A program made the translations under genes and the position numbers. From contig JABDIY010000110.1 in NCBI GenBank assembly GCA_013003535.1, positions 1-61,636 on the forward strand: a DNA stretch of 61,636 nucleotides, in the 5' to 3' direction. The notes under the pieces were generated by a model. That model was not told the DNA's origin and made no database searches. It was given only the letters and a program-made list of their open reading frames with translations. This stretch comes from Acidimicrobiales bacterium (GTDB lineage Bacteria > Actinomycetota > Acidimicrobiia > Acidimicrobiales > SZUA-35). This document shows, one piece after another, positions 7,960 through 61,273 of this stretch (its first letter is position 1; each line of letters opens with the position of its first letter).

Positions 7960-9054
7960 ATGATGCATGCGGGCAGGAGCAAGCTCACCATGTCGCCTGA
8001 CCGAGCGCCGTCTGACTTCGAACAACCGGTACTCGTCGAGGAGGCCACCCCTGCAGTGCCTGCCGAACCGCGCATGACGTGGGGAGCCGGCTGGTCAGAG
8101 CTCATCAAACAAACGATCCTCGTAGGCCTGGCCGTGCTCCTCTATTTCGCTGTCCGAGGACAAACTGAAGGAGCAGAGTCGGCAGCGCTCGAGAATGGCC
8201 GCCGGGTTCTGGATTTCGAGCAAGAGCTGCACATCGCCTACGAGAGAGACGTCCAGTCGGTGTTCTCGTCCCACATTGCCGTAACGCTGAACAACTGGGC
8301 CTACATCTGGCTCCACTGGCCAGTTATCACCGTCACGCTGTTGTGGCTGCACCGCACTCGCCGGCTCGACTACTTGATCTTGCGCAATTCCATGTTCATC
8401 TCGGGCGCGATCGGTCTCCTGATCTTCATGCGGTTCCCGGTGGCCCCACCCCGTCTGCTCCCCGGTTTCGTTGACACAGTGAGCGAATTCTCCACGTCGT
8501 ATCGCATCCTCCAACCTCCTGACCTCGTGAATAAGTACGCAGCGATTCCCAGCCTTCACGTTGGCTGGAACCTTCTCGTTGGTGTGGTGCTTTACGGCGC
8601 ATCCCGCCGGCTGGCGATCCGGCTCGCTGCGGTGCTCAGCCCGATCATCATGACCATTGCCGTGGTGGCAACCGCCAACCACTACATCGTCGATGCAGTA
8701 GCTGGGATTGTGGTGGCATTAGCCGGCTTGCTCCTCGCTAAATGGGTCACGTATCCCATTGCACAGCTTGAGCCGCACCTACTCGGCCGGCATCAAAGCG
8801 AGGTCGTCGAGGATGACACCAGTGATCCCCCACTCGGCCAGGGTCCCAATAGTGGCGGCGTCGGGAACCGCCCAGGAGAACAGCAATCCGCGCCGCAGCA
8901 GTCGCCGAGCGACCGCCTCATTGAGCAACCGCCGGTGAACCACAGCGCCGTCGATCTTCGCACGGGACGGCATCCAGAGCAGGAGAGCCAATTCAAATCG
9001 ATTCCCCGCAGAACGGATCGTGCGAATCCCTGCCATTTCTCGGAACTGATGTAG
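7960..9054 (+). CDS. PAP2-superfamily membrane phosphatase / inositolphosphotransferase-like
   Basis: 364 aa. After a charged N-terminus come about six membrane segments. The PAP2 active-site blocks are visible: an Arg/Pro-rich loop RFPVAPPRLLPG, IPSLHVGW (catalytic His of motif 2) and NHYIVDAVAG (motif 3 His and Asp). PAP2_3-type proteins hydrolyse or transfer lipid phosphates, so a role in phospholipid or phosphoinositide metabolism at the membrane is likely. The last 90 or so residues are hydrophilic, low in family resemblance, and encoded antisense to the end of the GDPD gene (8779-9054); they may be an over-run created by loss of an earlier stop. Two DosR-type boxes lie upstream and the mRNA is probably leaderless or nearly so. 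Confidence 0.85.
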   Translation: MMHAGRSKLTMSPDRAPSDFEQPVLVEEATPAVPAEPRMTWGAGWSELIKQTILVGLAVLLYFAVRGQTEGAESAALENGRRVLDFEQELHIAYERDVQSVFSSHIAVTLNNWAYIWLHWPVITVTLLWLHRTRRLDYLILRNSMFISGAIGLLIFMRFPVAPPRLLPGFVDTVSEFSTSYRILQPPDLVNKYAAIPSLHVGWNLLVGVVLYGASRRLAIRLAAVLSPIIMTIAVVATANHYIVDAVAGIVVALAGLLLAKWVTYPIAQLEPHLLGRHQSEVVEDDTSDPPLGQGPNSGGVGNRPGEQQSAPQQSPSDRLIEQPPVNHSAVDLRTGRHPEQESQFKSIPRRTDRANPCHFSELM

Positions 9055-22647: not shown

Positions 22648-22693
22648 AATCGTCAATGGTGAACGGTCACGAGCGATCTAGGGCTGAGACGGG

Positions 22694-31330: not shown

Positions 31331-31654
31331 CTAAGGAGCCTTCTGACTCAGATCCTGAGGTTGGGCGACGTCACGGGCTGGAGGCGGTGGGCTAGCCAGT
31401 GGAGACGCCGTTCCGAGATCGATCTCTGCCTCGGCCTGGTCTTCGGCGTCGTAGTACCCCGGAGGTGCAGGATCCAGAATCAGAGCGAGGAGGATGTAGG
31501 CGATCAATCCTCCGCCTCCAACGAGGGTCAGTGCCACGAAGGCCACCCGCACCAAGTCCGTATCGATGTCGAAGTAGTGGCCAAGTCCACCACACACCCC
31601 GCGTATTTTCTGGTCCTCGGTGTCCCGGTAAAGGACTTGGTCGCGTCGATTCAT
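31331..31654 (-). CDS. PspC-domain protein
   Basis: 107 aa. MNRRDQVLYRDTEDQKIRGV followed by CGGLGHYFDIDTDLVRVAFV and a single TM (ALTLVGGGGLIAYILLALIL) is the full PspC domain, as in phage-shock proteins that sense membrane stress. An acidic Pro-rich tail follows. ATG 31654 is preceded by GGAGG at good spacing. The DosR-type box at 31710 predicts a start at about 31674. Probably monitors or stabilises the cytoplasmic membrane during energy limitation. Confidence 0.87.
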   Translation of the reverse strand: MNRRDQVLYRDTEDQKIRGVCGGLGHYFDIDTDLVRVAFVALTLVGGGGLIAYILLALILDPAPPGYYDAEDQAEAEIDLGTASPLASPPPPARDVAQPQDLSQKAP

Positions 31655-31709
31655 CTTCTGTCCTCCTGTTTGGAACTTCATCATCGTCGGCTCCGCAGCC
31701 GGCTCAATA

Positions 31710-31723
31710 GGGACCATAGTCCT
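31710..31723. promoter_or_regulatory. DosR-type box between pspC-like and CoA-binding genes
   Basis: GGGACCATAGTCCT centred at 31716.5. Leftwards it predicts a 20-nt leader for the PspC gene. Rightwards, 42.5 bp leads to a TTG at 31759 that is in frame with the CoA-binding protein. Confidence 0.7.
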
Positions 31724-31848
31724 CACCGGCCCGGACCGGCCTGGCCCATTCGACGTTTTTGCGTCGGTTGATGACGTCCGCCTCTGGCCACCGCAGCAGT
31801 CCACGGGGACGATCGAGGCAAATCTTCCGCCGATCGAAAGGTCCAACA

Positions 31849-32325
31849 ATGCAACCGATACGTCAAGCGGCCGACGACTTCCTGTCCAAGCGACGCATCG
31901 CCGTGACCGGGGTTTCACGAACCAACGGTGGGCACGGCAGCAACACCGTCTACAACCGGCTCAGGGAGCGCGGGTACGACGTGGTGCCGGTCAATCCGAA
32001 TGCTGACAAGATCGAGGGGGATCCGTGCTACCCGGATCTCGAGTCCATCCCCGATGGCGTCGAGGCGGTGGTCATAGGGACCCGGCCCGAATTGGCGTAT
32101 CCCACAATGTGCGAGTGTGCTTCGCTGGGGATTGAACACGTGTGGCTGCACAGGGGGCCCGGCCCGGGAAGCACCTCGGACCGTGCGGCGGCATATGGGC
32201 GGGATCATGGCATCCGTGTCATCAATGGTGGTTGCCCCCTGATGTTTGGGCCAACCGCCGATTTCGCACACAAGTGCATGCGACCGATCTTGACGTTGAC
32301 TCGGGCAGTGCCCAGATCTGTCTGA
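31849..32325 (+). CDS. CoA-binding (YccU-like) protein
   Basis: 158 aa. Rossmann-like CoA-binding fold: RRIAVTGVSRTNGGHGSNTV, YNRLRERGYDVVPVNPN and GIEHVWLHRGPGPGSTS are the conserved blocks of single-domain CoA_binding_2 proteins. Ligand/role unknown. ATG 31849 with GAAAGG upstream is taken; the in-frame TTG at 31759 lies exactly 42.5 bp from the box and would add 30 Arg-rich residues, so the true start is open. Confidence 0.8.
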   Translation: MQPIRQAADDFLSKRRIAVTGVSRTNGGHGSNTVYNRLRERGYDVVPVNPNADKIEGDPCYPDLESIPDGVEAVVIGTRPELAYPTMCECASLGIEHVWLHRGPGPGSTSDRAAAYGRDHGIRVINGGCPLMFGPTADFAHKCMRPILTLTRAVPRSV

Positions 32326-32330
32326 GAACC

Positions 32331-32358
32331 CGCGATCGGCGATCCGCGATCGGCGACC
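32331..32358. repeat. Tandem 14-bp direct repeat before the LprG-like gene
   Basis: CGCGATCGGCGATC followed directly by CGCGATCGGCGACC, differing at one base. It lies 63-90 bp before the lipoprotein start. It could be an operator, or merely a recent duplication. Confidence 0.5.
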
Positions 32359-32420
32359 ATCAACCTGCTCTACGATGAGGTCTCATCTACTTTCTTTCGT
32401 CCCCACCTGGGTCCCCGCCC

Positions 32421-33137
32421 ATGAGAACTCTGCGTCCGAACCGGCTGCTCACTCTCGCGTTCGGTCTCCTCCTGCCGCTCGTTGTCACAGCGTGCTCCTC
32501 GGCGACGAACGAAGCTGGCGACGCCACGATCGAAGAAATCCTGTCCCGCTCGTCATCGGCAATGGCCAAAGTGGAGACGGCTCGCTTCGCCATCGAGCAA
32601 ACTGGTGCTGCCGTCTACATCGATCAAGCCGAACAGATCCAGTTCAGCGGAGCCACAGCTCGATTCGCGGCGCCATCGTCTGCTGATGCACTGATAGGAG
32701 TTACGGCCTTCGGCCTCTCAACCGAGGTTGGTGCCGTGGCCATAGACGGAGAAATTTGGATCACCAATCCCCTAACCGGGAAGTGGGAAGCGGCACCGGA
32801 AGGACTCTCGTTCGACCCGACAGTCCTCTTCGCGGTGGACACCGGTTGGGCCGCTGTACTCTCCGGCGGGCTTCAAGCACCAGTGTTGGTCACCGAGGAG
32901 GGCGACACCGACGAACGCCACCATGTGCGGTCCACAGTCGAAGCCAACCGGGTCTCAACGCTCACCGGTGGACTCGTGAACGAATCATCCACCCTGGACC
33001 TGTGGATCGACGCCGAGACGGGCCTCGTCGATGAGGCCTCATTCGACGTGGAAACCGGTGGCGGACTTACCAGTTGGCGTTTGACCGTGACCAATTATGA
33101 CAGTGACATCACGATCACCAAACCCGACCTGAGCTGA
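32421..33137 (+). CDS. LppX/LprAFG-family lipoprotein (LprG-like)
   Basis: 238 aa. Signal peptide LLTLAFGLLLPLVVTACSS with lipobox VTAC (lipidated Cys 25). The mature part has the LppX_LprAFG pattern: a helix EEILSRSSSAMAKVETARFAI followed by beta-strands with VGAVAIDGEIWITNP and a C-terminal LTVTNYDSDITITKP. Such proteins carry triacylated lipids in a hydrophobic cavity across the periplasm. It sits 9 bp before an MFS exporter, the same order as mycobacterial lprG-Rv1410c (P55), which exports triacylglycerol. No clear DosR-type box is seen here. Confidence 0.85.
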   Translation: MRTLRPNRLLTLAFGLLLPLVVTACSSATNEAGDATIEEILSRSSSAMAKVETARFAIEQTGAAVYIDQAEQIQFSGATARFAAPSSADALIGVTAFGLSTEVGAVAIDGEIWITNPLTGKWEAAPEGLSFDPTVLFAVDTGWAAVLSGGLQAPVLVTEEGDTDERHHVRSTVEANRVSTLTGGLVNESSTLDLWIDAETGLVDEASFDVETGGGLTSWRLTVTNYDSDITITKPDLS

Positions 33138-33146
33138 GCTGAGAAG

Positions 33147-34670
33147 GTGGATCCCCAAAGCGGTTCGCCCGCCCGGGCGTCGCTCACCCTAGGCGTCGTC
33201 GCTCTTGGCGTGTTCATCGCCGCCGATGATCTGATGGTTGTAGCCACGATGCTCCGCCCGATGATCAACAAGGTCGGAATGACACTGCCCGATGACCTCG
33301 ACGCATCCGCATGGATTGTCAACACCTACCTAGTCGCCTACATCGCCGCCATTCCCCTCGCGGGAAAACTGAGCGACCTTTTCGGCCGCCGAGCGGTGTT
33401 CCTCGGCGGCCTCGCCATCTTCGCCCTTGGCTCGGTGGTTGTACCCACTACGTCGTCATTCTCAGTTCTCCTCCTGGGCCGAGCGCTCAGCGCGATCGGA
33501 GGTGGTGCGCTTGTTCCGGTGGCGCTGGCCGTAGCCGGAGACCTCTACAAGGGGGCAGAACGACGGCGAGCGCTTGGGGTGCTCAACGCGGTTGAGACGC
33601 TGGGATGGGTGTGGGGACCGCTGTATGGGGCATTGCTGGTCCGCTTCTTGACCTGGGAATGGCAGTTCTACCTCAACGTGCCGCTGGCGTTCACTGCGAT
33701 GATGCTCGGCTGGAAGGTGCTCGAACCAAACCAGCGAGCCGGGCGCGGAATCGATTGGCTGGGCGCCACTCTCCTCACCACCGGGCTCATTTCACTAAAC
33801 GTCGCACTACTTGGGCGAGCAAAGATTCAAACCGTAGGCGGCCTCGACGAGCTGACTGGCGGTCCGTCCAATCCGCTCCTGGGTCCGTGGCTGTTTGCCG
33901 TCGCTGGTGCTGCCATTCTCTGGTTTGTTCTCGTGGAACGACGACGTTCGGGATCCGCCAAGGTCGATCCAGTGATCGCCCTTCGATTCCTCTACGATCG
34001 GCGCTCAGCTGCGGCCCTCAGCGTCAACGGACTGGTCGGAGCTGGCCTCGTGATCGCTCTGGTGAATGTGCCACTCTTCATCAACGTGGTGGAAAGCCGG
34101 GCCGGCCGGAGCATCGGCGAGGCTGCACTGCTGTCGGGTTGGCTCCTCACCGCCCTCACCGCCTCCATGGCGGCTACGTCTTACTTGGGAGGAGTCACCG
34201 CGGCCCGGCACGGCAACGCCGCCCCGACGTTGATCGGACTCCTGCTCGCCACCATCGGTTTCCTGGTGATCGGTGCAACGTGGTCGCCCACCACGTCACG
34301 ACTGGCGATGGCCGCAGAGCTGGCACTTGTGGGGATTGGAATCGGTTTGGTCTTGGCACCGACCAGCGATGCGGTGGTCGAGACGGGCGAAGAAGCGGAT
34401 CGTGGTGCTGCAGCCGGCCTGGTGGTCGTATTCCGGTTGATTGGCTTCAGCGTAGGTCTTGCCAGCCTCACCGCGTGGGGACTGCGACGGTTCAACGAGC
34501 TCCGCGACCAACTTGACCTTCCACCGCTGGGGGAAGCAGGCTTCGCGGACGCTCTGGCCGATGCCTCCGTGCAGGTCACCACCACCGCGCTGGCGGAAAC
34601 GTTCCTTGGTGCAGGGCTTGTGCTGATCACCGCGTTGGTGATTGCGGGACTGGCGGCACGGCGGCTCTAG
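33147..34670 (+). CDS. MFS exporter, P55 (Rv1410c)-like
   Basis: 507 aa with 14 predicted TM helices (DHA2 class). Motif A GKLSDLFGRRAVFLGG is intact, and AETLGWVWGPLYGALLVRFL-like motif C (VETLGWVWGPLYGALL) marks an exporter. Partner of the LprG-like lipoprotein 9 bp upstream; by analogy the pair moves lipids or hydrophobic compounds out of the membrane. GTG start. Upstream of a DosR-box-controlled acs operon. Confidence 0.87.
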   Translation: MDPQSGSPARASLTLGVVALGVFIAADDLMVVATMLRPMINKVGMTLPDDLDASAWIVNTYLVAYIAAIPLAGKLSDLFGRRAVFLGGLAIFALGSVVVPTTSSFSVLLLGRALSAIGGGALVPVALAVAGDLYKGAERRRALGVLNAVETLGWVWGPLYGALLVRFLTWEWQFYLNVPLAFTAMMLGWKVLEPNQRAGRGIDWLGATLLTTGLISLNVALLGRAKIQTVGGLDELTGGPSNPLLGPWLFAVAGAAILWFVLVERRRSGSAKVDPVIALRFLYDRRSAAALSVNGLVGAGLVIALVNVPLFINVVESRAGRSIGEAALLSGWLLTALTASMAATSYLGGVTAARHGNAAPTLIGLLLATIGFLVIGATWSPTTSRLAMAAELALVGIGIGLVLAPTSDAVVETGEEADRGAAAGLVVVFRLIGFSVGLASLTAWGLRRFNELRDQLDLPPLGEAGFADALADASVQVTTTALAETFLGAGLVLITALVIAGLAARRL

Positions 34671-34696
34671 GGGTGTCTCGCGAGGGCCGGCCCGGC

Positions 34697-34710
34697 ATGA
34701 CCTTTGGCCC
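34697..34710 (+). promoter_or_regulatory. DosR-type box of the acs-pdh operon
   Basis: ATGACCTTTGGCCC centred at 34703.5, exactly 42.5 bp from GTG 34746, with T at -7 (CCTACT). Confidence 0.75.
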
Positions 34711-34745
34711 TTCCGGAACTGCGCCCGCTGTGGCCTACTGAATCC

Positions 34746-36482
34746 GTGCAGACGTTCCCCGCTCAGCGCCCGTCCTCACAGTGGGACGAGGCTCGAAACC
34801 GGCTGGACGGGCTCCCAGAGGGACGGGGCCTGAACATAGCCTACGAAGCCCTTGACCGTCATGCCTTGCACGGACGGGGGGATCAGGTGGCGATCCAATG
34901 GGTGCCCCGTGAAGGTGATGCGGTGTCCCTCACCTACCAAGATCTGGTAGATCGAACCAACCGCTTCGCCAACGCACTTGCCGAGTTGGGCTATGAGACT
35001 GGGCACGGCGTTGCCACGTTGGCAGGCCGAATCCCGGACCTGTACGTGGCGGCACTCGGAACACTCAAGAGCCGGGGGATCTACACCCCGCTGTTCTCAG
35101 CGTTCGGGCCCGACCCGATCGCCATGCGCCTCAACCTCGGCCGCATCGCAGTGCTGGTGACCACAGCAGCGCAATACCGGCGCAAAGTGGCTGCACTCCG
35201 GCCGGATCTCCCGTCCCTCCAACACGTGCTGATCAGCGGTGACGGTGCCGAAGAGATCGACGATCCCACCGTCCTCGATTTGAACCAGTTGCTGGAGCGA
35301 GCAGCCGACCACTATGAGATCGGCCCCACCGACCCCGAGGACCGGGCACTGCTTCATTTCACCAGCGGCACCACCGGTACTCCCAAGGGTGCGCTCCACG
35401 TTCATCAAGCGGTCGAGGGCCACGCCGAAACAGGCCGACTGGCATTGGACCTGCGGAGTAGCGATACCTTTTGGTGCACTGCAGACCCCGGCTGGGTCAC
35501 CGGCACATCTTACGGCATCATCTCACCGCTGGTGAATGGGGTGACCAGTATCGTGGACGAGGCCGATTTCGACCCAGAGCGCTGGTATCGCATACTTCAG
35601 GATCAACAGGTCAGTGTTTTCTACACAGCACCTACTGCGCTCCGCATGCTGCAACGCGCTGGGGATGAGTTGGCCGCTGGCCACAAGTTTCCATCCCTTC
35701 GTCTCGTTGCCAGCGTTGGCGAACCGCTGGATCCTGAATCGGTGATCTGGGCCCAACGAGTCTTTCAGGTCCCGGTTCTCGACAACTGGTGGCAGACCGA
35801 AACGGGTGGGATCATGATTTCAAACCTGATCGATCATCCGGTCAAGCCAGGATCGATGGGGAAACCGCTTCCGGGTATCACCGCTGGTCTTTTGAAGTGC
35901 GATGAACAGGGCGAATTGGTAGTAGGGCACGACGGCGATCCCGTTGAGATCACCACCGCCGACGAGGTTGGCGAATTGGCGCTCGAGGCTGGCTGGCCTT
36001 CAATGTTCCGAGGGTACCTGGACAACGAGGAACGCTACCGCGCCTGTTTTGCCGGGCGCTGGTATCACAGCGGCGACCTGGCCCGCCGGGATTCCGACGG
36101 GTACTTCTGGTTTGTTGGCCGAAACGATGACGTGATCAAGTCGGCGGGTCATTTGATTGGTCCCTTCGAGGTGGAAAGTGCACTGACCGAGCACCCTGCA
36201 GTCGTCGAGGCGGGCGTGATCGGCAAACCAGACGAACGAGTGGGCAACATCGTGAAAGCGTTCGTTGTCCTGGCCAACAGTTACGCACCCTCGGAGGAAC
36301 TGCGGCGAGATCTCATCGGCCATGCCCGTAGCCGACTCGGTGCCGCCGTCGCTCCGCGAGAGATTCAATTCTCAACGTCGCTCCCCCACACCCGCAGCGG
36401 AAAGATCATGCGGCGTCTCTTGAGAGCGAGAGAACTGAATCTCGACGAGGGAGACACATCGACCCTGGAGAGCCAAGCATGA
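34746..36482 (+). CDS. acsA: Acetate-CoA ligase (AcsA-type acetyl-CoA synthetase)
   Basis: 578 aa ANL-superfamily enzyme. Phosphate-binding [49 protein letters not shown] and [20 protein letters not shown] are diagnostic of the AcsA/AcsM group; the C-terminal catalytic Lys is in [11 protein letters not shown]. Activates acetate (or a short acyl group) to acyl-CoA with ATP giving AMP and PPi. GTG 34746 is taken as start because of the exact spacing from the box; an in-frame start at 34704 would overlap the box. First gene of a five-gene operon with pyruvate dehydrogenase subunits; its stop overlaps pdhA by ATGA. Confidence 0.92.
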
Positions 36483-37459
36483 CGGGTCCGCAAACCAAAC
36501 TTCTTCGGGACATGATTCGCATCCGAGTATTCGAGGAACGCTGCGCGGAACTCTACGGCCAGCAGAAGATTCGCGGATTCCTCCATCTCTACATCGGCGA
36601 AGAGGCAATCGCCGCCGGGGTCATTTCCCAGCTCACGAAGGATGACTCCATCGTGGCCACCTACCGAGAGCACGGTCACGCCTTGATTCGAGGTATCCCA
36701 GCCACCGAGATCATGGCCGAAATGTACGGCAAGGCGGCCGGGTGTTCGGGGGGGCGTGGCGGATCCATGCACCTCTTCGACGCGGAAAGGAGATTCCTCG
36801 GCGGGAATGCCATCGTGGGCGGGCACCTTCCGTTGGCGACCGGTCTGGCGTTGGCTGACAAGATGCTCCACAGAAAAGGGAGAGTCACAGCATGCTTCTT
36901 CGGCGAAGGTGCAGTCGCCGAGGGGGAATTCCATGAAGCGATGAACCTTGCGTCGATCTGGAATCTCCCGGTCCTCTTCTGCTGTGAGAACAATCTCTAC
37001 GCGATGGGCACGTCGCTCCAGAGCAGCGAATCAGAGACGAACCTGTCCTTGAAGGCCAGCAGCTACAACATGCCGTCGTGGAGCGTGGACGGCATGGATG
37101 CAGAAGCGACCGCCGGCGCAGCCTCTCGGGCGCTCGACACGGTACGGGGCGGGGGCGGTCCAGTGTTTCTGGAGTTTCGCACGTATCGGTTCCGTGCCCA
37201 CAGCATGTTCGATCCGGACCTCTACCGGAAACCGGATGAGGTAGCGAAATGGACCGAGCGAGATCCGATCTCAACCTTCTCGGCACAGCTGACATCGGCC
37301 GGAACGCTCACCCAGGAACATATCGACCGGCTTTGGGTCGAGGCCAGCCAAGAGACACAGGACGCGGTGGACTTCGCGGAGGCTGCGGAGTGGGAGCCAG
37401 TGGAGAACCTCGAAGATCATGTCGGCGCAACCGACGGTGCATCGGTGGTGCTGGTATGA
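36479..37459 (+). CDS. pdhA: Pyruvate (or 2-oxoacid/acetoin) dehydrogenase E1 alpha subunit
   Basis: 326 aa, thiamine-diphosphate enzyme. [34 protein letters not shown] and the TPP motif [20 protein letters not shown]...LFCCENN are clear. The [20 protein letters not shown] segment is the phosphorylation-loop region found in AcoA/PdhA. With E1 beta it decarboxylates pyruvate (or acetoin) and transfers the acyl group to E2. Start overlaps acsA and stop overlaps pdhB (both ATGA), showing strict coupling. Confidence 0.92.
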
Positions 37460-38460
37460 CGGCACCAGAACTCGCCGCAGAGACCACGTACCGTGACGCG
37501 CTTCGTGAAGCCATACGGGAGGCGATGATCGAAGACGAACGAGTCTTCATCATGGGTGAGGATGTGGCCGAGTACGGCGGAACCTATGCGGTCACAAAAG
37601 GGCTGTATAAAGAGTTCGGCCGCGACCGCGTCCGCAATACTCCGCTCTCGGAAGCCGGATTCGTCGGTGCCGGAATCGGCGCCGCCCTGGGAGGAATGCT
37701 GCCGATCGTGGAGATCATGACGGTGAACTTCAGCCTCCTCGCATTGGATCAGATCGTCAACACTGCCGCCACCCTGCGCCATATGTCAGGCGGGCAATTC
37801 CATATCCCCGTGGTGATCAGAATGACCACAGGCGCTGGTAGACAACTGGCCGCGCAGCACTCACACAGCCTCGAGTGCTGGTTTGCGCATGTGCCTGGCC
37901 TTCGAGTCGTCGCGCCAGCAACGGTAACGGACGCTCGCTGGATGCTCAAAGCCGCAATGGCTGATCCCGATCCCGTGATCGTTTTCGAGCACAACGGGCT
38001 CTACAACTCCAGTGGACCTGTTCTGCCGGGGCCGGTGGACCTCACCACTGCGGAGATCCGACGCCCGGGAACGGACCTCACCATCGTGGCCTCGGCGGGA
38101 ATGGTCTCGAAGTCCTTGGAAGCAGCCGAACAACTCGGCGACCGGAACGTTTCGGCCGAAGTCATCGACCTTCGATCACTTCGCCCTCTCGATCGTGCCA
38201 CATTGGCGAAGTCGGTGGAGCACACCAGCCGAGCGGTCGTGGTCGACGAGGGGTGGCGCTCCGTTGGCTTGTCGGCAGAAATCGCCGCAGGAATCACCGA
38301 GGATTGCTTCTATCGGCTTGATGCACCGGTGTGCCGCGTGGCATCCCGAGAGGTGCCCATTCCCTATCCGCGTCACCTCGAGGACGCCGCAATCCCCCAG
38401 GTCCACGACATTGTTGCGGGGGCCATGACCGTGATGACGGGGAGCTTGGCTGATGTCTGA
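37456..38460 (+). CDS. pdhB: Pyruvate (or 2-oxoacid/acetoin) dehydrogenase E1 beta subunit
   Basis: 334 aa. [40 protein letters not shown] (TPP-coordinating Glu) and [20 protein letters not shown] are the standard E1 beta blocks; the transketolase C-terminal domain runs from about 200. ATG 37456 overlaps the pdhA stop. Forms the alpha2beta2 E1 component with the preceding gene. The alternative specificity (acetoin, branched-chain) cannot be excluded from sequence. Confidence 0.93.
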
Positions 38461-39706
38461 AACCGCGCCACCGCCTACGGCAACAGCCCGGATTTTCAAA
38501 ATGCCTTCGTTGGGCGCTGACATGGAGAGCGCCGCCGTGCTGGAGTGGCTGGTTCAGCCCGGTGATCTGGTGCAAAGAGGCGATGTGATCGCGCGGGTCG
38601 AAACGGAGAAGTCGGATATCGACGTGGAGATCTGGGAAAAGGGACGCGTGATTGCCCACCTCGTGGAAATCGGTGAGGACGTCCCAGTGGGCACACCGAT
38701 CCTACAACTCGGCACTTCCGTCGAGAGTACCGATCCGATCTCGGCAACGCCCGCCGTGGTTGCGCCGTCTTCGTCGTCTACCGGAACAGGGCCAGCGCCC
38801 GCCCAGGTTCGGGAGCGCGTTTTCATTCCCGAACCCGTGGCGGAACATGATCTCCCACCTACGAGTGAACCCGCTCGCGACCTGCGAGCATCACCCCTCG
38901 CACGGTCGATGGCCTCTGCACTGGACATCGATCTGGCAACAATTGCGGGTTCGGGCCCCGAGGGGGCGATCATCGCTCGGGACCTACCGTTTAACTCGAT
39001 GGAGGGCACCGTCGAGGCCCCCGCCAAATCCCAACCGGTGGCCATTGATCGCATGCGGGAAGCGATCGCTACCCGAATGGCTCGGGCCAATCACGAAATC
39101 CCGCACTATCACCTTGAAAGAGACGTAGATCTCGGAACCGCAATGGACTGGCTCGAGCGCTCAAACGAGTGCGTGCCCCCCGGAGAACGGGTGCTGCCAG
39201 CAGCGCTCTTCGTCAAAGCCGTCGCCCGGTCCATGGCTGAGCACCCAAACCTGAACGGCTTCTGGGTAGACGATCGTTTTCAAGCCGGCGATGGTGTCCA
39301 CGTGGGCATGGCAATCTCGCTGCGCACCGGGGGCCTCGTGATCCCCACGATTGTGAATGCCGACCGTCGTACGATCTCGGAGGTCATGTCATCATTGCGA
39401 GAGATGGTCGCAGGCTCGCGGAGCGGTTCGATGCGCAGCAGTTGGATGCACGAGGCCACTGTGACGGTGACGAACCTGGGAACAAACGGTGCAGACCGGG
39501 TTCATGGCGTCATCTTTCCCCCCCAGGTGGCCCTTATCGGGTTCGGTCGAATAGCCGCCCGTCCATGGGTAGCGGAGGAACAGGTTCGACCCCGGCCCGT
39601 CGTCACCATTTCGTTGGCCGCAGATCATAGAGCAACCGACGGAGCGACCGGTAGTCGATTGCTCTCGACACTCGCCCACTCTCTCGAACACCCGGAGGAA
39701 CTGTGA
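38453..39706 (+). CDS. pdhC: Dihydrolipoamide acyltransferase E2
   Basis: 417 aa. One N-terminal lipoyl domain (about 10-88) with the lipoylated Lys in [11 protein letters not shown], a flexible linker, a peripheral-subunit-binding domain ([20 protein letters not shown]) and the catalytic acyltransferase core ending in [11 protein letters not shown] (HxxxD active site). Transfers the acyl group from E1 to CoA. The E3 lipoamide dehydrogenase is not encoded here and must come from elsewhere. Overlaps pdhB by 8 bp and the acyl-carrier gene by 4 bp. Confidence 0.93.
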
Positions 39707-39990
39707 AGACCCTGACGAACGAGGCTGCCAACGCCATCGTGGTTGAGGCAATTTGTGCCGTAGCGCCTGATACTGCAAATGAATTGGCCGGCATCGGCCT
39801 GGATCAAGACGTTTTTCAGGCGCTGGAGTTGGACTCCATGGACCACGTGAACGTGATCACGCGGATCTGGGAGGAGACCGGTATAGAGATCGCCGAGCGC
39901 GACTACGGCCGGCTTCGGACCCTCGACTCCCTGACGACCTTTCTGATTTCAGCGATGGGATCCGGATCTGAGCGCCCCAAGTCGGTTTGA
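39703..39990 (+). CDS. Acyl carrier protein-like protein
   Basis: 95 aa. ALELDSMDHVNVITRIWEET contains the 4'-phosphopantetheine Ser in the DSM motif, and the four-helix layout fits an acyl carrier protein (GIEIAERDYGRLRTLDSLTT). GTG start overlaps the pdhC stop. An ACP as last gene of an acs-pdh operon is unusual: it could receive acetyl groups from E2 or AcsA, or feed a lipid pathway. That link is an inference from gene order only. Confidence 0.85.
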   Translation: MKTLTNEAANAIVVEAICAVAPDTANELAGIGLDQDVFQALELDSMDHVNVITRIWEETGIEIAERDYGRLRTLDSLTTFLISAMGSGSERPKSV

Positions 39991-40023
39991 ACCTGCTTCG
40001 AGTTGTTGATGGAGCGTACAACT

Positions 40024-40037
40024 GGGACTTTGTGCCT
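40024..40037 (+). promoter_or_regulatory. DosR-type box of the USP-DUF4404 gene
   Basis: GGGACTTTGTGCCT centred at 40030.5, exactly 42.5 bp from ATG 40073; CATGAT occupies the -10 position. Confidence 0.78.
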
Positions 40038-40072
40038 TTACATGAGAGCGTCGTAACGCACATGATCAAGGC

Positions 40073-40792
40073 ATGACAATTGGTCCTGTCCCCATACTCG
40101 TGGCCGTCGACCTTCCCGTGGACGAGAGGCAGCTGGACCCACTGTTGCGGCTCGGCCGGCAGGCAAACTGGCGAGTTCACCTCCTTCACGCTCCCGCCCC
40201 TGAACCAGATTTTGTGGGCTATTCCGGGCCGGACCAAGATCATGAGCGGCGCCGATATCAGGCCGAACTGACGGAGCTAGGCGACCAACTCACCCAAACC
40301 GCCCAACTATTCGTTGAGACTGGCATGGAGACGGAGGTGCACCTCAAGGCGGGGCCCGTCGTAGACACCATTCTGGCCACTGCGATCGAAACGAATGCTG
40401 AATTGATTGCGATCGTCGGGCATAAGCACAACGTGGCCCACCGCCTTCTCCTGGGAAGCGTGGCATCCACGATCCTGAAGGCGGCCCATCAGCCAGTCCT
40501 GGTTCTTCCCGCCTCGACGGCGGAGCCAGAACATCCGGGCGTGGAAACTGCGGTCGACCGGTTGCTTGAAGTGATTGACCGACCCGAACCGGGTCGGAGC
40601 TCTGAACTGGGAACCGAACTCCTTCGCCTGCGGGAGGCCGCCGCCGTACTCCGTGACGAACCCGAAAGCGAGACGCAGGAAAAACGGCGGAGGTCACTGC
40701 TCGATGCGCTCCATCGATTCGAGACCGAGCACCCCACCCTCACACGAGCGATCAACGACGTGGCCTATTACCTAAGTGGTACCGGAATCTGA
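40073..40792 (+). CDS. Universal stress protein fused to a DUF4404-like domain
   Basis: 239 aa. Residues 1-150 are a USP domain ending in the ATP loop GHKHNVAHRLLLGSVAS with strand VLVLPAS. Residues 160-239 are a separate helical domain (LRLREAAAVLRDE, then SLLDALHRFETEHPTLTRAI and NDVAYYLSGTGI) that matches the DUF4404 pattern, normally a small stand-alone protein. I am not aware of this fusion as a described architecture. No Shine-Dalgarno; box-to-ATG spacing indicates a leaderless mRNA. Followed by a DUF1876 gene, perhaps in the same transcript. Confidence 0.83.
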   Translation: MTIGPVPILVAVDLPVDERQLDPLLRLGRQANWRVHLLHAPAPEPDFVGYSGPDQDHERRRYQAELTELGDQLTQTAQLFVETGMETEVHLKAGPVVDTILATAIETNAELIAIVGHKHNVAHRLLLGSVASTILKAAHQPVLVLPASTAEPEHPGVETAVDRLLEVIDRPEPGRSSELGTELLRLREAAAVLRDEPESETQEKRRRSLLDALHRFETEHPTLTRAINDVAYYLSGTGI

Positions 40793-41278: not shown

Positions 41279-42847
41279 ATGCGTGTCGTCCCACCCCCCG
41301 GAGCATCAATGGCAAGGAACACCGAACGGCGTCCGTTGGTGAACGATCCTGCTGAACCTCTCGACCTCCGGGCTCATGACGAACCCGATGGCGCCATCGC
41401 ATGGGCGATGGTGGAAGCCTCCCCCGACGCCTTGGTCGTGGTGGATGATGACGGACTCATCACGCTGGTGAACAGCCAGACCGAGGTCCTCTTTGGCTAT
41501 GACCGCACGGAGCTTCTTGGTCAACCCGTCGAAATGCTCTTGAACGAGGAATTGCGTTCCACCCACGTCGCCCACCGGCGCCGCTTCGCTGCCCATCCTG
41601 GCGTTCGGTCGATGGGCAGTGGTTTGGAGCTGTCGGCACTGCGCGCCGACGGCGCTGAGTTCCCGGTGGAGATCAGCCTCTCGCCGCTGAAAGCCCATGG
41701 ACAGCGGGGAGTAATCGCCGCAATCCGAGACGTCACTGAGCGGGTGGAGGCACAGGTAAGGGAACGCGAAATCGCGACCAGATTCAGATCAGCCTTCGGC
41801 GACGGACCGGTCCCCATGACCATCGCCGAAATCTCCCCCGATAGCGATCGGGTGATAGTAGAAGCCAATCAGGCGATGGCGGACCTCCTCGGCTGCCCGA
41901 TCGAACATCTGATCGGGCGCTCCATCATGGACTTCGGCCATCCCGACGACCGGCGGGCCGACGATGAAGCAACCGCAGCCCAACTCAGTAACGAGGAACC
42001 AACGTTTACGACCCGCAAACGCTATATCCGGGCCGACGGCACCACCGTATGGGTCCAGCTGACCGTGGCCATTCTCCACCGTGAGGGAGACCTTGTTCGG
42101 ACGATCGCCCATTCGATCGATATCACCGCCGAAGTTCTGGCCGAAGCCCAGAAAGCTCGGAATCAAGAGGCGCTTGAACAAGCCAGATTGGCCGAACAGC
42201 GAGCTGAGCTTTTGGAAGATCGTGAACGCATCGGCCGTGACATGCATGACAAGGTAATCGGCAGGCTCTTCGCCACTGGCATGACAGTGCAAGCCACCGC
42301 CGCGGTCGTGACCGATCAGGCCATCCGGGAACGGCTTACCACAGCGGTGGCAGAGATCGATGAAGGCATCCGAGAGATTCGCACCACGATCTATGGACTC
42401 CGCTCACAAATGGACTGGGGTAAGGGTGTCCGCGGCGAGATTTTGGCTGCCGCCGTCGATCACAGCCAAGCCCTCGGGTTCGAGCCTCGGGTTGACCTCA
42501 CCGGTCCCATCGATGATTTGAGCCCCAGCATCGCCGTCGAGATGCTCGCAGCCCTCCGGGAGGCGCTCACCAATGCCTCGAAATACGCCCGGGCCAATGC
42601 CGTGACCATTGCGGTGACCTTGCGCGACGATCACCTCAAGATGTCGGTCTCGGACAATGGCCTTGGTTTCGTGCTCCCGGATCACGCCACTACTTCACGA
42701 GAGGGTGAACCGTTCACCGGCAAGGGCCTGGCCAATATCATCGCCCGAGCAGAGGCGCTGGGAGGGAACGCCAGCATCGACTCGCTGCCCGGCGCAGGCA
42801 CCACGGTGCTTTGGACAGTGCCGGCGTCTCCAAATTCGGATACATGA
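41279..42847 (+). CDS. PAS-PAS histidine kinase, DosS/DevS-like output
   Basis: 522 aa, no membrane segment. PAS 1 about 44-155, PAS 2 about 165-285, then the HisKA_3 helix RERIGRDMHDKVIGRLFATG with phospho-acceptor His 323, and an HATPase (ALREALTNASKYARA, DNGLGF, GKGLANIIARAEALGG). The kinase core strongly resembles DevS/DosT, but their heme GAF domains are replaced by PAS domains. It is an orphan (no adjacent regulator) and most likely phosphorylates the DosR-like protein at 60602. ATG 41279 or 41309 possible; the latter has GGAG. Ligand of the PAS domains unknown. Confidence 0.87.
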   Translation: MRVVPPPGASMARNTERRPLVNDPAEPLDLRAHDEPDGAIAWAMVEASPDALVVVDDDGLITLVNSQTEVLFGYDRTELLGQPVEMLLNEELRSTHVAHRRRFAAHPGVRSMGSGLELSALRADGAEFPVEISLSPLKAHGQRGVIAAIRDVTERVEAQVREREIATRFRSAFGDGPVPMTIAEISPDSDRVIVEANQAMADLLGCPIEHLIGRSIMDFGHPDDRRADDEATAAQLSNEEPTFTTRKRYIRADGTTVWVQLTVAILHREGDLVRTIAHSIDITAEVLAEAQKARNQEALEQARLAEQRAELLEDRERIGRDMHDKVIGRLFATGMTVQATAAVVTDQAIRERLTTAVAEIDEGIREIRTTIYGLRSQMDWGKGVRGEILAAAVDHSQALGFEPRVDLTGPIDDLSPSIAVEMLAALREALTNASKYARANAVTIAVTLRDDHLKMSVSDNGLGFVLPDHATTSREGEPFTGKGLANIIARAEALGGNASIDSLPGAGTTVLWTVPASPNSDT

Positions 42848-60539: not shown

Positions 60540-60601
60540 TAGCAGGCGACCAACAACTGCTCCCAAACTTGCGGGCATGGGCAGTCATAGGAAGACGTGA
60601 T

Positions 60602-61273
60602 ATGACGAACGACGAGAACGGTTCTGGAACCATCCGAGTCTTCATCCTCGATGACCACGAGATTGTGCGGAGGGGTGTAGCCGACCTCGTCAATGCCGAG
60701 CCCGACCTGGAGGTCGTTGCCGAAGAAGGCTCGGCTCAACAGGCACTGCGGGCAGTCGAACGGTTCAAGCCTGATGTAGCAGTCTTGGATGTTCGTCTTG
60801 AAGACGGCAACGGAATTGAAGTGTGCCGGGACATTCGATCGGCCCACCCTGAGGTTGCATGTCTCATCCTCACCTCATTTGCCGACGATCACGCGCTGGT
60901 GGACGCCTCCTTCGCAGGAGCAGCGGGATACGTGCTCAAACAAATCCGTAGCAACGATCTCATCGAATCCATACGGAAGGTGGCAAACGGCGCAGCTCTG
61001 TTGGACTCGGCAACGGTCCGCATGGCCATGTCACGACTGAAGGAAAGCGAAGAAGGCGCTATCGCAACTCTCACCCCACAAGAGCACCGCATCTTTGATC
61101 TCATCGGTGAAGGTTGGTCCAATCGGCAGATCGCCGAGGAACTCTTCCTCGCCGAGAAGACCGTCAAGAACTATGTATCGAACCTGCTTGCCAAGTTGGG
61201 CATGAGCCGGCGAACTGAGGCCGCCGCCTTCGCAGCCCGACTGGAGGAGCGAAGCCGGCGTCGCTACGAATAG
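60602..61273 (+). CDS. dosR: DosR/DevR-type response regulator
   Basis: 223 aa NarL-family regulator. Receiver: acidic pair Asp17-Asp18 in ILDDHEIVRRG, phospho-acceptor Asp63 in AVLDVRLEDGNGIEVCRDI, Thr91, and Lys113. The C-terminal HTH has the recognition region LAEKTVKNYVSNLLAKLGM, differing from M. tuberculosis DosR at only one of those positions, so it should bind the same GGGAC-type palindromes found all over this window. ATG 60602 has GGAAG upstream. A DosR-type box in its own promoter implies positive feedback. A PAS kinase gene overlaps its stop. Presumed master activator of the island. Confidence 0.95.
   Translation: MTNDENGSGTIRVFILDDHEIVRRGVADLVNAEPDLEVVAEEGSAQQALRAVERFKPDVAVLDVRLEDGNGIEVCRDIRSAHPEVACLILTSFADDHALVDASFAGAAGYVLKQIRSNDLIESIRKVANGAALLDSATVRMAMSRLKESEEGAIATLTPQEHRIFDLIGEGWSNRQIAEELFLAEKTVKNYVSNLLAKLGMSRRTEAAAFAARLEERSRRRYE

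Follow-up and report, generated by a model that had tools for sequence, protein, structure and literature searches.

The window analysed here, 61,636 nt of contig JABDIY010000110.1 (assembly GCA_013003535.1) from an Acidimicrobiales bacterium (GTDB SZUA-35), carries a lipoprotein gene directly followed by an MFS transporter gene, and this pair is probably an LprG/P55-type lipid-export unit with a housekeeping-type promoter of its own, which a local rearrangement in this lineage would have brought into the dormancy island. LprG/P55-type lipid export by the two predicted proteins is well supported at the level of sequence comparison. The pair had been proposed in an earlier note from the letters of the DNA, and its identity is confirmed by matches to PF07161 and MFS_1, by PDB sequence matches and by the fold matches of predicted models. 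The features of the locus are:

31710-31723, no strand assigned: nearest strong DosR-like box, score 21, two mismatches to the consensus GGGACTWWAGTCCC
31849-32325, + strand: gene for a CoA-binding protein, 95 bp before lprG; PF13380, E 8.9e-27
32330-32356, no strand assigned: 14-bp tandem repeat 65 bp upstream of lprG, with 1.9 copies at 100% match and a score of 54
32371-32376, + strand: TACGAT, inferred as a possible -10 hexamer; seen in the sequence, 44 nt before the lprG ATG
32421-33137, + strand: LprG-type lipoprotein gene (lprG), 238 aa, lipobox VVTAC
33147-34670, + strand: MFS transporter gene, Rv1410/P55-like, 507 aa, GTG start
34697-34710, no strand assigned: degenerate DosR-like site preceding the Acs-PDH operon, with a background-level score of 13
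34704-40792, + strand: Acs, PDH E1a, E1b, E2, ACP-like and Usp genes (ORF list, domain matches)

The PF13380 match was obtained on a longer ORF from 31759, the start at 31849 being our own assignment.

The lipoprotein and its transporter

The 238-aa protein is an LprG-type lipoprotein, for which triacyl-lipid binding and transfer are putative functions. It matches the LppX_LprAFG family (PF07161) with an E-value of 5.7e-13 and 49.6 bits against a curated cut-off of 24, and both a reading of the sequence and a lipobox pattern place VVTAC at residues 21-25. By sequence alone, similarity to LprG is weak (3mh9, E 0.083). For the predicted model (pLDDT 90.4, built from 49 rows), the seven best PDB matches are all M. 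tuberculosis LprG (E 1.0e-12 to 7.0e-12), including the TAG-bound structure 4zra, followed in the PDB structure search by LprF, LppX and then LolA. LppX, LprF and LolA-type carriers belong to the same fold class with weaker matches than LprG, and we know of no pairing of these carriers with an Rv1410-type MFS protein. The lipoprotein is the single PF07161 match found in the genome of the window, and the family was detected at E <= 0.001 in 21 of the 61 genomes searched.

The 507-aa protein matches MFS_1 (E 4.2e-37), and its best PDB sequence is 8pnl (E 2.7e-49; runner-up 1.7e-15), which is MHAS2168, the M. hassiacum homologue of Rv1410. Its predicted model (pLDDT 87.5, built from 67 rows) shows 14 long helices, read as membrane helices, and 8pnl ranks first both in Foldseek (32% identity) and in VIA-align (Z 46.0, rmsd 2.3 over 460 residues, compared with Z 39.6, rmsd 3.0 over 457 residues for EfpA). 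The model has extended TM11 (416-454) and TM12 (466-505) helices, in line with passages of PMC10576003 that describe such helices as an Rv1410 feature. The TM9-TM10 beta-hairpin of the mycobacterial transporter is absent from the predicted model, where loop 379-384 stands alone, and the same passages present this hairpin as dispensable for function in the mycobacterial protein (PMC10576003). Five residues, D28, D77, R112, N177 and R430, are invariant in the 67 MFS rows and align with the functional residues D35, D83, R118, N184 and R426 of MHAS2168, so that the ion-lock partner R426 has its counterpart in R430. The ion lock E157-R426 (MHAS2168 numbering) is not found in the same form, as E157 aligns with T151, a threonine in 67 of 67 rows; the acid stands one residue earlier, at position 150, in 66 of the 67 rows (E in 35, D in 31, G in one). 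Since the register is fixed by a nearby downstream GPxYG motif, this one-residue displacement is read as real, and because of it the MFS protein is not filed as a strict Rv1410 member. Further differences from MHAS2168 are the overall identity of about 31-34% and the replacement of Q121 by S, T or A (67 rows).

It is improbable that the MFS protein is an ordinary DHA2-group multidrug exporter with only a loosely associated lipoprotein. QacA, EfpA and EmrB do share the same MFS core and two linker helices and rank next in structure and sequence, and the best NCBIfam match is efflux_EmrB (E 3.6e-40), though with 138.1 bits it lies below the cut-off of 230.2; QacA, according to passages of PMC10576003, likewise has an element between TM11 and TM12. 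However, 8pnl is nearer than any drug exporter in E-value, identity and Z, with 18-23% identity to QacA, EfpA and EmrB in structure alignments versus 31-34% to MHAS2168, and an LprG-type partner accompanies the transporter in all 18 relatives' loci.

The lipid-export reading is preferred for the pair. It resembles M. tuberculosis LprG-Rv1410 (P55) and M. hassiacum MHAS2167/MHAS2168 in its gene order, the lipoprotein gene immediately preceding that of the MFS protein, in the LprG fold and in the predicted MHAS2168 fold with long TM11 and TM12. Going by family, predicted fold, gene arrangement and conserved residues, and by analogy as far as substrate, destination and coupling are concerned, the MFS protein would use proton antiport to pull a neutral lipid out of the inner membrane and pass it to the lipoprotein, with the long TM11 and TM12 guiding the lipid into the hydrophobic pocket; the membrane-anchored lipoprotein would then carry it outwards. 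Two matches to PF03007 (TAG/wax-ester synthase) are encoded in the genome of the window, and since this family is present in 55 of the 61 genomes searched, it does not single out carriers of the pair.

Pairing in relatives

In the window, lprG and the MFS gene lie on the same strand with a gap of 9 bp (ORF list). In each of the 18 relatives' loci, 16 from the same family and two from the same order, the lipoprotein gene comes first and the MFS gene next on one strand, with transporters 50-66% identical to that of the window. Within the family, an MFS match at E <= 1e-100 was obtained in 18 of 39 genomes, the window's genome included. The best 80 of 125 loci in a scan of genome contigs belong to Acidimicrobiia and Chloroflexota and come partly from the same genomes as the 18; an LprG-profile match lies upstream of the MFS gene in 63 of the 80, in 61 within 400 bp. 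The 17 loci lacking the match comprise L131 (Acidimicrobiales) and 16 Chloroflexota loci; L131 and one of the latter (L150) are cut at a contig end. With the match missing in 16 of the 18 Chloroflexota loci among these 80 (it is present in L134 and L136), the transporter branch is not always paired. Pairwise identities of lipoprotein and MFS protein correlate with r 0.79 over 42 rows, a value from which relatedness is not removed. In the tree, the window groups with L073, L074 and L075 at a support of 100/99, which applies to the group and not to the order inside the four.

Some further observations concern single lineages. The pair occurs as two lineages within one genus, with the window and G003 (L073) on one side and G001 (L095) and G004 (L101) on the other, likely by exchange between lineages or differential loss; the MFS protein of G002, from the same genus, is likewise only 52% identical. 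In 13 loci a small gene falls into one shared cluster, exemplified by the Chloroflexota locus L125 (5652-5975), where the small gene stands just before the MFS gene in the place that lprG would take; one gene of this cluster was run against Pfam and matched Nfu_N (E 3.5e-7).

Many relatives' transporters differ from the mycobacterial ones by a C-terminal extension. In five of the 18 relatives (L031, L032, L033, L035 and L038) the MFS frame runs into an extension of about 230 aa (15328-16023 in L031), which contains another hydrophobic stretch as well as repeats (VPIDETI, for example). Within the best 80 of 125 loci, 19 have at least three of our repeat motifs; a tail of 168 aa or longer is present in 16 others, the MFS tail reaches 101 aa at most in 42, and three are cut. 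By genome, the extension occurs in seven of 61, in one weakly, and is absent from the window's own. A search with one such tail returned no Pfam match over the cut-off and no PDB match. In G042 the extension is a separate frame of 282 aa directly after the MFS gene, suggesting that it is a third component of the system.

The DosR-type island and the neighbourhood of the pair

The earlier note had placed the pair in a DosR-type dormancy island, and the island is supported by a DevR/DosR-like regulator and by an excess of boxes at strict thresholds. The response regulator at 60569-61273 has DevR/DosR as best PDB match (E 6.3e-67), followed by VraR (2.8e-39), and in the kinase at 41279-42847 the first PAS part matches FixL and the ATPase part matches, among others, DevS and DosT. 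The DosR box has the consensus GGGACTWWAGTCCC; with this consensus and up to three mismatches, 16 sites were found in the window versus 5.07 in shuffles. A weighted palindrome score, the weights of which were set after the window's consensus sites had been viewed, gave seven sites at >=20 (mean 0.60, maximum 2 in 60 Markov sequences) and 18 sites at >=17.7 (6.25, maximum 12), and at the loose threshold of 14 no excess was seen (75 window sites versus 76.55 expected). At lprG itself no DosR box is present, as had been stated before, the best score between 31807 and 32430 being 13. The box at 31710 lies 711 bp upstream of lprG, between the pspC-like and CoA-binding genes and just before both.

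It has been considered that the pair belongs to a DosR-type regulon, the 31710 box driving one transcript from the CoA-binding gene through lprG, the MFS gene, Acs and PDH to Usp, so that lipid export would rise together with acetyl-CoA metabolism in hypoxia. We regard this as unlikely. The genes from 31849 through 40792 are all co-directional (window ORF list), the box scores 21, no terminator-like site lies in 31600-34900, a DosR-like regulator is encoded inside the window, and passages of PMC4709180 connect LprG-Rv1410 of M. tuberculosis with TAG levels during stress. Against this, the box directly precedes the pspC-like and CoA-binding genes as well, and no relative's locus among the 18 showed the context of the window: the CoA-binding, PDH and Usp genes stand beside the pair in 0 of 18, and for Acs there are partial matches alone (27-40% identity, four loci), with at least 3 kb of flank on both sides in 11 of the 18 and less than 3 kb on one side or more in seven. 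Conversely, the pair was not found in any of eight relatives' Acs-PDH loci within the stretch examined, although the order Acs-PdhA-PdhB-PdhC is kept in all eight, one of which is truncated at a contig end. Six relatives have the pair as well as the Acs-PDH operon (G003, G004, G016, G027, G032 and G033), and the two are on different contigs in every case. In G033, the pair contig ends 244 bp past the MFS match and the Acs contig begins 914 bp ahead of the Acs match; the sequence there is different and the two contigs have no ends in common. Adjacency of pair and Acs within a few kb is possible there. Finally, DosR-like boxes upstream of the pair are not enriched in relatives, with two of 59 loci versus about five expected (0.0855 per 800 bp). 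A DosR-specific role by read-through from the 31710 box is possible, and conservation among the compared sequences does not indicate it.

As side observations, a DosR-like box is found close before Acs in at least three of the eight relatives' Acs loci L058-L065 (L058, L062 and L063), and in G032 (L063) the Acs-PDH operon is divergent from hydrogenase genes.

Dormancy genes near the pair elsewhere were looked for in the best 80 of 125 loci, which overlap the 18, and were dismissed as support, as isolated matches alone turned up: a CoA-binding protein (63%) about 5 kb from the pair on the opposite strand in L089, the single such locus, a Na/Ca exchanger (58%) in L076, PPDK (about 61%) in L122 and low-identity ABC matches in nine loci. 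L089 (3497-5992, 12297-12770) also has an acyl-CoA-synthetase-like gene (39%) just before lprG and a single strong DosR-like box, at 8659.

An artefact of assembly, by which the pair was wrongly joined into the contig, is highly improbable as the source of the arrangement. The genome is indeed a draft of 221 contigs and the same arrangement was unseen in relatives, but the artefact requires two joins between intact genes, and GC is steady at 0.591-0.653 in 1-kb windows over 28-41 kb.

Local rearrangement in this lineage is kept as the favoured explanation for the position of the pair. The earlier note had gone on from the pair and its island to lipid storage or export during dormancy; pair and island stand, while the location was not seen in any of the 18 relatives' loci within the flanks covered. 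The dormancy role would follow from one location unseen in the relatives examined, and the step from this location to dormancy export is weak. A tie of the pair to slow growth is reasonable in view of the stress link reported in passages of PMC4709180, and such a tie needs no island location.

The region upstream of lprG

The 14-bp tandem repeat upstream of lprG, already described in the earlier note, exists and is exact. In our own scan it is the sole exact array in the window with a period of 10-20 and at least 12 matching steps. Given two further arrays of comparable or higher score, at 22678 (score 55) and 50969 (score 71), such arrays are not rare in the window. Conservation of the repeat, which the earlier note had named as a check, did not hold up. 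As a conserved operator the repeat is ruled out, an exact array of any kind occurring in one of 63 relatives' loci (L105), where it is AGTACTT-based and thus of different sequence; as an RNA hairpin or terminator it is likewise ruled out, with a fold z of 0.75 and no terminator-like site in 31600-34900. There is no support for the repeat as a regulatory element.

A sigma-70 consensus scan of 31600-34900 returned no promoter. If TACGAT at 32371-32376 served as -10 hexamer of a promoter, the repeat would cover its -35 region. In the set of 51 relatives plus the window, 24 of the 52 loci have TANNNT at 5-9 nt ahead of the assigned lprG start, the window being outside the 24; shuffles gave 1.31 on average and 6 at most. 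Starts were chosen by rule, and 12 of the original 64 loci were left out because no start could be assigned or upstream sequence was lacking. We read this motif as a probable leaderless promoter common in relatives, and the pair would most likely be under a housekeeping-type promoter of its own. CGATCG upstream of lprG is not clearly enriched (15 of 60 loci versus about 13 expected, 0.21 per 160 bp).

Significance of the pair outside mycobacteria

Unlike the mycobacterial pair, the one described here resides in an Acidimicrobiales host, and its lineage spans Acidimicrobiia and Chloroflexota. Searches of the open-access literature gave no paper joining LprG with Acidimicrobi, none joining LprG, LppX and Chloroflexi, and none joining DosR, Acidimicrobi and universal stress protein. 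As a tentative proposal, to which we give somewhat less than an even chance, a distinct LprG/P55 branch in Acidimicrobiia and Chloroflexota may export neutral lipids by means of an ion-lock acid shifted in position, many members also using a C-terminal, probably periplasmic extension of the transporter. To our knowledge, neither Acidimicrobiia nor Chloroflexota have a mycolic-acid outer membrane. Since the relatives examined do not share the location, a reading as dormancy lipid exporter matters less. If the branch exists as proposed, LprG/P55-type lipid export would predate the mycomembrane or be independent of it, and lipid extraction by an MFS protein together with a LolA-like lipoprotein would not be bound to the outer membrane of mycobacteria. 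The relatives would then offer non-pathogen models of the pair and a natural test of the ion-lock position for proton coupling.
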